A DNA stretch of 38,442 bases from the NCBI GenBank assembly GCA_013140605.1, contig JABFSL010000005.1:1-38442 (forward strand), in the 5' to 3' direction. The stretch's first letter is position 1. Each line of letters starts with the position of its first letter. The notes beneath the pieces were generated by a model. That model worked only from the letters and a program-made list of their open reading frames with translations, was not told the origin of the DNA and made no database searches. Origin of the DNA: Anaerolineales bacterium. Its GTDB lineage: Bacteria > Chloroflexota > Anaerolineae > Anaerolineales > Villigracilaceae. Below, piece after piece: positions 8,796-38,442 of the stretch. A program made the position numbers and the translations under genes.

Positions 8796-10367
8796 TTAGG
8801 GTACTTGCTTGATCACACAAAATACCGCGCCTCCGCGCTGAACCGAGAGAATGACAGGCGCATCTTTGAATGTGTTGACATCTTCGTTTGTGCGTGTGTT
8901 GATCAGCACAAAATCACCAGATTGGATATTGCCGAATTCAGCGCGATAATCATGAATGGTGATATTTCCGTTTGCATAATATTCCGCAATATACGGTTCT
9001 CGTTTAACAAAGAGCTGCGCATTCTGTTCGTTGAATCCTTGCACGGCTTCCTTGTAACAAGTGAGCCAGTATTCTGTTTCGTATGTGCGGAATGCTCCGC
9101 TTGTTCCGCCTGTGAAGGAGTTGTAATAAGCATATTCGTAGGGATGAAGTCCAAGCGCTCCGAAGATGCCTGGTGCGAGCAGGGCGAGTGTAAGTGCAAT
9201 TGCGATCCATTGTGTTTTTATTGCCGTGAATAATTTTTCGAATGTGAATCCTGCGAAGATAAAAACTGGCGGGAGAATAAATAAAAAGTGTCGAAAGCCA
9301 TCGTACATTGGCGGCTTGCGGAATACAACATATGCGCTGGGTACTATGAACCAAAGCAATGCAAGCGCGAGCGTTATTCGTTGTTTATTATTTGATTTCC
9401 AAAATCCAATCGTTACGCCAGCAATAAATAAAAGCCATATCGGTTCGGTGAGTGTGTAGCCAAGCAGGGTTGGAAGGTATCTACGGGGCAGTTCATCCGC
9501 TTTGTAGACCTGCCCGTTGAAAAGGACAGGGAGTTGCGTTGGATTATCAGACATGAATCCGAAGACTTCAATAAATTTTTGAAACGGACTTGTCCATAGG
9601 TAAGGCCATGTTAAAAATGTAATTAGTATGGTAAGGACAAAGTACGCTGCAAAGTACTTTATCAGTATCACCGCTGTGGATTTGTCGAATTTCCCAAGCG
9701 CGTAAATCCCCACCAGGATTCCAGCCAACGGGCCAAGCACGCGAATGGATGTGGCAATGCCGAGAAAGAACGCGGCAAGAAATATAGACCCTAAAGGTTT
9801 TTTCTCCGCCAAGTTGTGTTTGTTGCTACGCAAACCTTTAGGGTCTGATTGTGTAATCGCATCGATCATTTCAAAGCCAAAGCATATCGCTCCCAGGAAA
9901 AAAACGAGGAACGGCGGGTCCTTGGGGTTGATAAACGCATGTCCCCATAAAAGCGGCTGCCATGCGAATAATGCGGCTGATGCTAATGCGGCGAAAGGAT
10001 GCATCCACTTTTTGGCGAGGCGATAAAGTAAATACACGCCAAGTTGAAATGTAAGGAAGTTAACGAGATGCCATGTGGAGGCGTTATCAATGCCAAAAGA
10101 TTCAAATACAGATACAACAGGCTGGGCGAGCAGGATATAGGCTGGGCCGCGATTGGCGTGATCTGTTCCGCTGGCGCCATAGGCATTTTCAAGATCAAAG
10201 TTTCCGCTGAACCATTCACTGGGCGTGTAGGCGTACCCAAGCGCGTTGGCGTAATCATAAAAGAGCGGTTCGTCCCAGGATAATCCGTAATTACGGAAAG
10301 TAAGGAGACCGACCACTATATTGATGATCAGCAAAATAAGAATTGGGTGTTGGCGGAGTTTCTGCAA
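8796..10367 (-). CDS. PMT/ArnT-like (GT-C, GT39 type) membrane glycosyltransferase
   Basis: A 523-aa multi-pass protein. Right after the first membrane span it has NYGLSWDEPLFYDY, the acidic DE motif expected of the PMT_2 family (dolichyl/undecaprenyl-phosphate sugar transferases). Further signs are NRGPAYILLAQPV, WHLVNFLTF and a long run of spans ending near residue 410, followed by an extracytoplasmic C-terminal domain (YAYYNSFTGG..., 410-523). The start is a TTG at 10367 with no clear ribosome site. Between two membrane spans, residues ~170-200 (QSDPKGLRSNKHNLAEKKPLGS) are encoded by an in-frame palindromic repeat, annotated separately. Donor and acceptor unknown. Confidence 0.8.
   Translation of the reverse strand: MQKLRQHPILILLIINIVVGLLTFRNYGLSWDEPLFYDYANALGYAYTPSEWFSGNFDLENAYGASGTDHANRGPAYILLAQPVVSVFESFGIDNASTWHLVNFLTFQLGVYLLYRLAKKWMHPFAALASAALFAWQPLLWGHAFINPKDPPFLVFFLGAICFGFEMIDAITQSDPKGLRSNKHNLAEKKPLGSIFLAAFFLGIATSIRVLGPLAGILVGIYALGKFDKSTAVILIKYFAAYFVLTILITFLTWPYLWTSPFQKFIEVFGFMSDNPTQLPVLFNGQVYKADELPRRYLPTLLGYTLTEPIWLLFIAGVTIGFWKSNNKQRITLALALLWFIVPSAYVVFRKPPMYDGFRHFLFILPPVFIFAGFTFEKLFTAIKTQWIAIALTLALLAPGIFGALGLHPYEYAYYNSFTGGTSGAFRTYETEYWLTCYKEAVQGFNEQNAQLFVKREPYIAEYYANGNITIHDYRAEFGNIQSGDFVLINTRTNEDVNTFKDAPVILSVQRGGAVFCVIKQVP
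9786..9846. repeat. Palindromic repeat inside a coding region
   Basis: Two perfect 15-base inverted arms (9786-9800 and 9832-9846; right arm AAACCTTTAGGGTCT) flank a 31-base spacer. The element lies in frame within the GT39-like gene, where it encodes a hydrophilic loop. Its arms match those of the mreB-mreC repeat (27442-27537) at 11 of 15 positions. Confidence 0.85.
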
Positions 10368-26363: not shown

Positions 26364-27437
26364 TTGGCCTTCAACCCTATTAACTGGCTGTTAGGCCTTT
26401 TTTCTCTGGACATTGCCATAGATCTTGGCACTGCGAATACATTAGTTCATGTTCGCGGCAAGGGGATTGTTATTAATGAGCCATCCTGGGTCACTGTTGA
26501 CAAGAAATTACGCCAGCCCGTAGCAATTGGTCTCGAAGCAAAAGAAATGGTTGGCCGCACACCAAGTAATGTTATGGTGGTGCGTCCTATTCGCGATGGT
26601 GTCATTGCCGAGTTCGATGTTACTCAGGTAATGCTTGAGTATTTCATCGGCAAAGTCCATGAACAAAGCATGGTCCCGTTGCCGCGGCCGCGTGTGATCG
26701 TGGGTCTGCCCACCGGCGTAACAGAAGTTGAAAAGCGCGCGGTTTATGATGCGGTCATGGCCTCGGGCGCGCGTCAGGCCATGTTGATCGAAGAACCGAT
26801 CGCGGCTGCACTGGGAGCTGGTCTGCCAGTCGGAGAGATTCGCGGCTCGATGGTGGTTGACATCGGCGGCGGCACCACCGAAGTGGCGGTCTTGTCCATG
26901 AGCGGCGTTGTCGCATCCCGTTCCCTACGTGTTGCCGGCGATGAAATGGATCAGGATATTGTGCAGTATCTTCGCAACAAATATAACCTTTTGATCGGTG
27001 AAGGAAACGCGGAGCAGATCAAATGGCAGATCGGTTCAGCGTATCCATTACAACCCGAAAAGACTATGGAGGTACGCGGCCGCAATTTGGTAACTGGCCT
27101 GCCTGAAACCGTTGAAGTTTCTTCCGTTGAGATCCGTGAATCCTTAAGCGCCTCCGTACAGGTTATCATTGACACAGTGCGCGACGCATTGGATGAAATT
27201 CCGCCCGAGATCGTTTCAGACCTGATGGATATTGGAATTTGTCTAGCCGGTGGCGGCGCGCTCCTTCAAGGGCTTGCCGAACGCCTCACCGATGAATTGA
27301 AACTGCGTGTATGGGTTGCGGAAGACCCGCTGACTTGTGTGGCCCGCGGCGCTGCAATGATCTTTGAAGATCTGGATGTTCTTGGACGTTATTTGGTCGG
27401 CTTGGAACGCGGCAGTACTCGTCATATTGTTGGATAA
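26364..27437 (+). CDS. mreB: Rod-shape-determining actin-like protein MreB
   Basis: 357 aa from a TTG with AGGAG at 26353-26357. MreB forms membrane-bound actin-like filaments that position lateral wall synthesis. Phosphate-1 motif: SLDIAIDLGTANTLVHV; a central PRVIVGLPTGVTEVEKRAVYDAVMASGAR; phosphate-2 VVDIGGGTTEVAVLS; adenosine motif ICLAGGGALLQGLAERL. The N-terminal hydrophobic NPINWLLGLFSLD resembles the membrane-binding start of other MreBs. First gene of a shape and division operon; mreC follows after 108 bases that contain a palindromic repeat. Confidence 0.97.
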   Translation: MAFNPINWLLGLFSLDIAIDLGTANTLVHVRGKGIVINEPSWVTVDKKLRQPVAIGLEAKEMVGRTPSNVMVVRPIRDGVIAEFDVTQVMLEYFIGKVHEQSMVPLPRPRVIVGLPTGVTEVEKRAVYDAVMASGARQAMLIEEPIAAALGAGLPVGEIRGSMVVDIGGGTTEVAVLSMSGVVASRSLRVAGDEMDQDIVQYLRNKYNLLIGEGNAEQIKWQIGSAYPLQPEKTMEVRGRNLVTGLPETVEVSSVEIRESLSASVQVIIDTVRDALDEIPPEIVSDLMDIGICLAGGGALLQGLAERLTDELKLRVWVAEDPLTCVARGAAMIFEDLDVLGRYLVGLERGSTRHIVG

Positions 27438-27441
27438 TTGT

Positions 27442-27537
27442 AAACCTGACAGGTCTCATATACGACATGCCAGGTGAAGATGGTTGCGCGAAACGAATCT
27501 AAGGATAATCAAGGTTGTTCGCAGACCTGTCAGGTTT
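27442..27537. repeat. Palindromic repeat between mreB and mreC
   Basis: Perfect 15-base inverted arms AAACCTGACAGGTCT (27442-27456) and its complement (27523-27537) with a 66-base spacer. Each arm is itself a partial palindrome (ACCTG-A-CAGGT). It fills almost all of the 108-base gap, from 4 bases after the mreB stop to 8 bases before the mreC start. Confidence 0.85.
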
Positions 27538-27545
27538 TATAAAAT

Positions 27546-28382
27546 ATGAATTCCCGCTCTTTACAAACAACGATTATTTTTCTTGTAGTGGGGGGCATCC
27601 TTGCTCTGGCTCTGGGCGGTTTCTTTGGCTCCGCCTCCAGACAATTTAGCTCAGTGTTGATCGAACTTCAAACCTGGATATCCTCTCGTTTCCTTGGCGT
27701 TCAGGATTTTGTCAGTGCGCCTCGTGATATTGCCTCCTTACGAACTCGTAACGCCGAACTTGAAACTCAGGTGTCACAATTACAAGCGCAGGTAATTGAA
27801 CTTCAGCAGCGAGTAAATGAAACTGAAATTCTTGCCGCCCTTGTGGATTTTTCCCGAACAAATCCTGAAAGCACATATAAAGCAGCCGCAGTGATCGGCC
27901 GCGACCCAAGTCCATTTTTGCATTACATCATTATCAACCGCGGCTCAAATGATGATATTCGACGCGGTATGCCCGTGGTGACCAATCAGGGATTGGTGGG
28001 GCGCGTAGATGCGGTAATCGCAGATGCCGCCCGCGTACAGCTTATTACTGATCCCGGTTCCGCCGTCAATAGTTCTTTGCAAAACGCGAAAACGACCGCG
28101 GTCACATTTGGGTCAGTCACTGGTGACATTTCCCTCGATATGATTTCGCAGAACGCTGTGGTTCAACCCGGCGATCTGATCTTAACCTCGGGGCTGGGTG
28201 GCGGTTATCCTTCCGACATTCCCATCGGGCAGGTGATTACGCTCCGCAGCCTTGAGTTTCAATTGTTTCAACAGGCCACCATCCAGCCCGCTGTGGATTT
28301 TTCACGCCTCGCGATTGTGCTTGTGATCACCAATTTCCGTCCAGTGGATATCGCGCCACTCGAACCCCAAACTACTCCATAA
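27546..28382 (+). CDS. mreC: Cell shape-determining protein MreC
   Basis: 278 aa. One N-terminal membrane span (TTIIFLVVGGILALALGGFFG), a coiled coil of about residues 60-100 (LRTRNAELETQVSQLQAQVIELQQRVNE), then the two beta-barrel domains that bind PBP2 outside the membrane (AAAVIGRDPSPFLHYIIINRGSNDDIRRGMPVVTNQGLVGRV...). MreC links MreB to the wall synthases. The ATG has no obvious ribosome site, because the upstream gap is occupied by the palindromic repeat. mreD follows after 13 bases. Confidence 0.95.
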   Translation: MNSRSLQTTIIFLVVGGILALALGGFFGSASRQFSSVLIELQTWISSRFLGVQDFVSAPRDIASLRTRNAELETQVSQLQAQVIELQQRVNETEILAALVDFSRTNPESTYKAAAVIGRDPSPFLHYIIINRGSNDDIRRGMPVVTNQGLVGRVDAVIADAARVQLITDPGSAVNSSLQNAKTTAVTFGSVTGDISLDMISQNAVVQPGDLILTSGLGGGYPSDIPIGQVITLRSLEFQLFQQATIQPAVDFSRLAIVLVITNFRPVDIAPLEPQTTP

Positions 28383-38350: not shown

Positions 38351-38442
38351 CGTTGCGAGGAGCGCTCTTGCCCTTCGCGACGAAGCAACCCCCAACTCGT
38401 TAAGGAGATTGCTTCGGGCGGGAAAGCACCGCCCTCGCAACG
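38351..38442. repeat. REP-like palindromic element ending exactly at the window edge
   Basis: Terminal arms CGTTGCGAGG (38351-38360) and CCTCGCAACG (38433-38442) are perfect complements; inside, GAAGCAA (38382-38388) pairs with TTGCTTC (38409-38415). It lies 16 bases upstream of the rtcB start. From memory, this 'CGTTGCGAGG ... GAAGCAATCTCC' type is a dispersed repeat of many Chloroflexota; I could not count copies here. Confidence 0.75.

Follow-up and report, generated by a model that had tools for sequence, protein, structure and literature searches.

A dispersed palindromic repeat, probably of REP/REPIN-like kind, read in frame within a glycosyltransferase loop of an Anaerolineales bacterium

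Does a perfect palindrome inside an intact reading frame belong to the protein, or to a family of mobile DNA that the protein has come to carry? The question is raised by a glycosyltransferase gene in a 38,442-nucleotide stretch from an Anaerolineales bacterium of the Villigracilaceae (contig JABFSL010000005.1); this whole analysed stretch is called the window below. A preliminary description, made from the letters of the window, had noticed two perfect 15-base inverted arms in the gene, proposed that a dispersed repeat had become part of the protein and likened it to Rickettsia palindromic elements (RPE). These are the features concerned:

8796 to 10367, minus strand: GT-C glycosyltransferase gene (PMT_2/ArnT-like), host of the element; 523 aa, frame intact, predicted start TTG
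9786 to 9846, minus strand: in-frame palindromic element, medium form (15 + 31 + 15 nt), host codons 174-194
9832 to 9846, minus strand: arm read first in the gene, AGACCCTAAAGGTTT, within (S)DPKG(L)
9801 to 9831, minus strand: 31-nt spacer, encoding the predicted disordered middle of the loop
9786 to 9800, minus strand: arm read second in the gene, AAACCTTTAGGGTCT, within KPLGS
27442 to 27537, no strand assigned: another member of the superfamily, of TGTCA subtype and long form (66-nt spacer), flanked by the ORFs at 26364-27437 and 27546-28382

The arms at 9786-9800 and 9832-9846, of 15 nt each with 31 nt between them, were complementary at 15 of 15 positions (100%). The element covered nucleotides 522-582 of the gene (codons 174-194; encoded reading SDPKGLRSNKHNLAEKKPLGS), and no internal stop interrupted the 523-aa minus-strand ORF at 8796-10367; coordinates, complementarity and frame thus agreed with the description of two perfect arms read in frame. 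Not one of 40 order-1 Markov versions of the window contained a perfect inverted repeat of 15 bp with at most 75 nt between its arms, and chance does not explain the repeat. When the 61-mer was folded as single-stranded DNA and compared with 200 shuffles, z was -4.67 for the minus strand and -4.15 for the plus strand. A known structured RNA was rejected as an identity, the window and three long-form loci having no Rfam match at gathering level. A loose search confined to the window (3 mismatches) returned the two arms as its sole matches, with a chance expectation of 0.82, so the arm is unremarkable at that scale and its dispersed nature becomes visible only at the level of the whole genome.

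The host had been called GT39-like, a label that is fair by fold and weak by sequence. PMT_2 was the sole Pfam match of the protein, at 20.7 bits and so under the 26.1-bit cut-off, and a Foldseek search with the predicted structure ranked ArnT (5ezm) top among solved structures, with GT-C enzymes taking most first ranks. The AlphaFold2 model, built on 40 aligned sequences, had a mean pLDDT of 90 and a pTM of 0.91. Residues 178-188, within the insert, formed the only stretch with pLDDT below 50, with helices 150-173 and 192-208 on either side; the prediction is of a disordered insert-encoded stretch linking two membrane helices, and the element's place between them bears out the earlier reading of a hydrophilic, charged loop between membrane spans. 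The position of a conserved NPKDP stretch, taken with the known topology of the family, would put the loop on the cytoplasmic side. In a 61-genome search that counted paralogues and partial matches, the gene was found in all but one of 37 genus members (G022 had no match). Its relatives in named genomes were Chloroflexota, nearly all of them Chloroflexi or Anaerolinea-type metagenome-assembled genomes, one being a Candidatus Villigracilaceae. A paralogue in the same genome (G000:C31:41120-42910, L385) carried about 100 extra residues at the same loop, apparently additional membrane helices, and split matches suggest a similarly enlarged loop in paralogues of many genus genomes.

The genome as a whole settled whether the arm is particular to this gene. 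Its 14-base core, GACCCTAAAGGTTT, had 25 exact copies in the 3.93-Mb assembly and its reversed control had none, which established, as the preliminary description had supposed, that the arm is not unique to the glycosyltransferase. The wider pattern AGACCNNNNNGGTTT matched 84 times, against 13 for the reversed control, and its inner five bases sorted into the types CTAAA/TTTAG, TGACA/TGTCA and TCCGA/TCGGA. Loci were read for 82 of the 84 matches (all except the single matches at C98:71433 and C100:9386) and held 44 paired elements at distinct coordinates. Spacers were 3 nt in 24 of these, 30-36 nt in 7, 65-66 nt in 6 and of other lengths in 7, giving short, medium and long forms of 33, about 61 and about 95 bp with spacers of about 3, 30-36 and about 65 nt; in the medium and long forms the spacer mostly varied from copy to copy. 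Across the genus, the exact 15-base arm occurred in 35 of 41 genomes, with 0-181 copies in each, and the reversed control in none. The 181 copies of G034, far above any other genus genome listed, look like a recent burst.

Further palindromes were seen in the window and beyond. The second superfamily element begins five bases after the stop of the ORF at 26364-27437, with no open frame across it. At 38351-38442 lies another inverted repeat, CGTTGCGAGG.../...CCTCGCAACG, similar to a CATTGCGAGG...GAAGCAATC family that has 77 exact-pattern copies in this genome. Long forms in G003, G036 and G028 (L142-L152) have spacers of about 65 nt with weak end motifs, YTYNGC at the start and GCNAAGG at the end, which may pair with each other and possibly make a larger folded element.

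Orthologues revealed the loop in its empty state. Between fixed anchors it measured 39 residues in the window gene and 26 in 16 of the 30 same-genus orthologues fetched; with loci from named genomes added, 31 of 86 distinct loop DNAs had the 26-residue form. Repeat-free orthologues without the long loop thus confirmed that it is an insertion relative to homologues. The AGACC element was present in four of the 30: the window gene (L056), its G019 counterpart with the same element (L057), a long decayed copy in G031 (L061) and a short decayed copy in G009 (L065), whose loop is nevertheless 26 residues long and is counted among the 16. Because an element of 61 nt brought a net gain of 13 residues (39 nt), about seven ancestral loop residues must have gone. 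Counted over occupied sites, 3-11 ancestral residues were missing, and neither a target-site duplication nor a clean empty site was found. Occupied loops have thus both shed ancestral residues and acquired new ones: the proposal that a short dispersed repeat was made part of a protein stands, with the qualification that the insert is no clean addition.

The two best-preserved copies had diverged unevenly. Between L056 and L057, 8 of 9 third positions in same-residue codons were kept in the arms. Outside the insert the gene kept 207 of 394, and the spacer 1 of 5; the arms and spacer offered few such sites. In the interior of the insert, 45% of codons gave the same residue in both copies, a share that rose to 78% elsewhere in the gene; the arms hardly differed. 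In a tree built without the loop, L058 and L059, both empty, fell between L056 and L057. The two carriers formed one clade in 71% of bootstrap trees, and a single origin of their insert is possible. Taken together, the in-frame arms, the 25 genomic copies, the shorter loops of orthologues and the low-confidence insert in the model support the in-frame insertion of a dispersed palindrome.

The glycosyltransferase was not alone in hosting the family. Eight of the 44 paired copies lay in frame within recognisable genes of the same genome, namely the window gene and those for LipB, an M20 peptidase, HemW (within the HemN_C domain), aconitase, a PD-(D/E)XK protein, an M50-TPR protein (at its last codons) and a RAYT (an IS200-like Y1 transposase). 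The preliminary description had spoken of a rare case, which at this frequency it is not. This tally leaves aside ORFs at L010, L038 and L096, which have no Pfam match, and those at L029, L032 and L046. No frame spans the L015 element or the window element at 27442; a 76-codon frame spans that of L018, and at L104 the element occupies the last codons of a 167-codon frame. Solved structures mark two of the inserts: aconitase aligned with human IRP1 (2b3x) with a 9-residue gap exactly at the insert, and LipB aligned with a bacterial lipoyltransferase (2qht) in two stretches, 4-95 and 129-235.

Comparison of orthologues then showed differing repeat types at the same codons in three of the four enzymes compared, with unrelated families in two of these. 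At the glycosyltransferase loop, other dispersed repeats filled four further orthologues of the 30: GTCCTCGSCGSCG in G003 and G036 (respectively 21 and 55 copies per genome, against 0 and 1 for the reversed control), CATTGCGAGG...GAAGCAATC in G006 (19 copies, control 0) and GGACGATGGACGAT in G020 (4 matches in 196,160 bp, control 0). The long loop of G005 (L084) could not be traced to a repeat: its pattern occurs once in the genome, as itself, and the G005 stretches searched (137,854 bp) gave 0 matches to the specific form of the pattern and 1 to a looser form. To the eye, the loops of L060, L189, L235, L237, L240 and L241, which lie outside this tally, seem to derive from repeats. The next loop of the same glycosyltransferase in G036 (L069) contained, in frame, a medium-form AGACC-type element, AAACCCTAAAGGTCT, with a 33-nt spacer.

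Among 18 genus rows of aconitase, the site held a TCCGA element in the window's own genome (G000) and G015, a TTCCGAA type in G002 and G003, a CTAAA element in G016 and another in G001; G005 and G006 had longer loops of unproven origin and ten rows a 25-residue loop. On an aconitase tree built without the site from 28 of 29 rows (one left out for its length), these labels required six changes, gains or losses, of which at least four were forced by well-supported branches, and the repeat label clustered no more strongly than in 101 of 500 shuffles. G000 and G015 share the same element and boundaries and yet fall in separate supported clades. Of 14 genus rows of the M20 peptidase, G000 and G009 had CTAA(A/G) palindromes, three (G001, G006 and G010) had a GTGACAGTCAC palindrome unrelated to these, G012 retained half an arm and eight had nothing. 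A second variable site of this peptidase, after GHIDTVPGEI (L095), carries an LTPNPSPEGRG-like insert encoded by CCCTCACCCCTAACCCCTCTCCC that is present in some species and absent from others, the empty site measuring 18 residues. In LipB, where 16 genus rows were compared, eight had a TGACA element, the same one throughout, two a reduced copy and six none, a pattern that, on these sequences, would be compatible with one old insertion.

As a control, we sought inverted repeats with arms of at least 11 over whole genes. Counts at the site and elsewhere were 5 and 4 in 29 aconitases, 7 and 0 in 22 LipBs, and 4 and 3 in 21 M20 peptidases. Perfect repeats of this kind were not enriched at the glycosyltransferase site (3 there and 12 elsewhere in 84 glycosyltransferases), where occupied loops are mostly decayed or filled by other repeats. 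The recurrence of the same or unrelated repeats at one spot in housekeeping enzymes of relatives suggests that mobile DNA finds shelter in protein loops with room to spare.

LipB also offered a view of how the arms are maintained. Across nine species, 130 of 135 cells of its arms were paired, 124 of them as Watson-Crick pairs; shuffling the partners gave an expectation of 117.8, and 0.075% of 20,000 shuffles, which ignore relatedness, reached 124. Pairs 2 and 14 changed on both sides, and every change altered a residue (RPDRF/KPVRS, RPDRS/RPVRS, KPDRF/KPVRF and KPDRS/RPVRF); two sequences, from G001 and G016, had decayed arms. The LipB arms thus seem to covary at the cost of amino-acid changes, and the arms of the palindrome appear to be kept as DNA, or as a hairpin, and not for the encoded peptide. 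Selection for the hairpin, hairpin-templated repair, gene conversion and re-insertion would all fit the LipB pairing alike.

A candidate agent for the spread of these palindromes came from the many Y1 transposases of RAYT kind in the genus. From 30 loci we read 19 RAYT-like ORFs (leaving out L341, L342 and L344-L352, where a neighbouring gene had been picked or the match was weak), and 18 of the 19 had an inverted repeat with arms of at least 11 inside them or within 30 nt. The repeat sequence went with the type of RAYT: AGACCTCCGAGGTTT, AGACTTCCGAAGTCT, AGGTGACAGTCACTT, CGTCCCGAAGG and AGACCTGACAGGTTT, and AGACCCTAAAGGTTT, the arm of the window element, in G028. There the window's CTAAA type both flanks and enters the RAYT (L340; G028:C185), and in G004 a CTAAA element (C56:30860-30954) sits between the two matched halves of a RAYT. 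Both genes, L340 and L155 (G004:C56), were seen to carry their own long-form palindrome in frame within the coding sequence. With palindromes flanking and sitting inside the RAYT genes of the genus, the repeat is best described as REP/REPIN-like, and as resembling Rickettsia RPE only in how it works.

The window's own genome has a TCCGA-type RAYT on C88 that is flanked by palindromes on either side and contains a further one. It was the only one of seven Y1_Tnp places in this assembly, which is 96.2% complete, with AGACC-type palindromes nearby, and none of the seven was a CTAAA-type RAYT; we therefore infer mobilisation in trans, by the C88 type or by a RAYT since lost.

We consider it very probable that the genus harbours a non-autonomous mobile repeat of REP/REPIN-like kind, and that the 61-bp palindrome is a copy of it that inserted at a tolerant glycosyltransferase loop and has since been translated within the enzyme. 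A RAYT acting in trans on single-stranded hairpin DNA would spread the palindromes, some of which would land in a loop that tolerates extra residues and then be read as part of the glycosyltransferase; selection would remove out-of-frame or damaging insertions, and the insert itself would be close to neutral for the enzyme. The reverse reading takes the loop for normal protein sequence under selection, whose amino acids happen to be encoded by an inverted repeat. It draws on the hydrophilic, charged character and open frame expected of any linker, and on the persistence implied by an insert common to the window gene and G019. This reading is nonetheless highly improbable: the same nucleotides recur many times elsewhere, mostly without a long spanning frame and in other frames, the residues are missing from orthologues, and between the two carriers the encoded interior diverged while the arms barely did. 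Ordinary protein evolution of the loop was accordingly rejected on the empty orthologues and the genome copies.

More can be said for retention of the hairpin in a role at the mRNA or DNA level, such as a translational pause between membrane helices, mRNA stabilisation or a protein-binding site. The covariation of LipB arms despite residue changes, the stable fold (z about -4.7) and the near identity of both arms in L056 and L057 speak for it. However, most orthologues do without the element, unrelated repeats fill the same loop without the same hairpin, and hairpin-templated repair, gene conversion or re-insertion also keep arms paired, leaving such a role quite unlikely. Somewhat better placed, though still unlikely, is a model without RAYT in which the palindromes spread, or are exchanged, as hairpins recombine and switch templates with one another, with an existing palindrome or a permissive loop serving as landing pad for swaps between families. 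Differing palindrome types occupy the same codons with similar boundaries in aconitase and M20 orthologues, the aconitase tree needs at least four label changes, ancestral residues were replaced and not merely interrupted, and a matching RAYT was not found in the window's own assembly. Set against this are the RAYT genes bordered by exactly these palindromes, as in the REP/RAYT systems described in PMC6006769, and the fact that strong selection for one tolerated loop explains common sites without swaps. We offer tentatively, as an idea of rather low probability, that certain loops of housekeeping enzymes in this lineage are standing landing pads through which RAYT palindromes of unrelated families, and other dispersed repeats, cycle: each would be translated, kept palindromic as DNA so that hairpin symmetry and not the enzyme dictates the residues, and in time give way at those codons to another family, perhaps drawn in by the hairpin already there.

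So far, in-frame palindromes have passed for a peculiarity of Rickettsia or for intragenic REPs found here and there. The 36 same-genus genomes, together with the window's own, amount to a natural experiment in which orthologous sites are empty, hold one element type or hold another. Such variety makes old questions testable: whether RAYT palindromes do transpose into genes, how they choose a site or survive there, whether upkeep of a hairpin can override protein sequence (for which the LipB arms offer a case), and how frequently enzyme loops are gained from mobile DNA. For annotators there is a warning that such loops are not conserved domains.

Among known systems, Rickettsia RPE are dispersed palindromic repeats found, and tolerated, in frame in many unrelated conserved proteins (PMC2229807 and PMC3733652); for one Rickettsia protein, gmk, translation of the element into a protein that stays active is reported (PMC2229807). 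The window family resembles them in being dispersed, palindromic and present in many genome copies, and in lying in frame inside conserved protein genes whose other orthologues lack it. It differs in its host, a member of the Chloroflexota and not Rickettsia; presumably in its sequence; in its size, with elements of 33, about 61 and about 95 bp against the 105-146 bp quoted for RPE; and in its tie to RAYT genes and the use of one orthologous site by several repeat types. The parallel first drawn with RPE therefore holds for mode of action, while the sequence ties lie with the RAYT-flanking palindromes of the genus.

REP/REPIN elements are closer: like them, the family is short, dispersed and often in inverted pairs (the 44 paired elements), and each RAYT type of the genus is flanked by its own palindrome, the CTAAA type going with the RAYT of G028. 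The GTAG, GTGG and CGTC tags were each found 0 times near the ends of 18 exact elements. Identity as a tagged REP was rejected on this ground and the family is not filed as a classical tagged REP; unlike in classical REPs, no tag marks the hairpin foot and the arms themselves make up a long perfect palindrome. The substantial intragenic share (8 of 44 paired copies) also sets the family apart from REP/REPIN.

Intragenic REPs are themselves known in several species, in-frame ones included (PMC3733652 and PMC6006769), and RAYT genes with self-insertion of palindromes have been reported (PMC6006769). According to PMC3733652, intragenic GTAG/CGTC REPs, for example those of O. terrae and R. conorii, are often dimers that lengthen the protein by 20-30 residues, supposedly in flexible linkers or loops, and Chloroflexi are among the phyla with GTAG repeats. 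Among titles on RAYT or REP palindromes in Chloroflexi, Anaerolineae or Villigracilaceae and on in-frame palindromes at homologous sites, none dealt with this system. The window element, like those GTAG/CGTC REPs, adds residues to a loop inside a gene; unlike them, its family is untagged, and orthologues reveal sites that are empty, a site occupied repeatedly and independently, and arms that covary. What is new is the recurrent use of one site by several families, with untagged RAYT palindromes of Anaerolineales entering the loops of orthologous enzymes.
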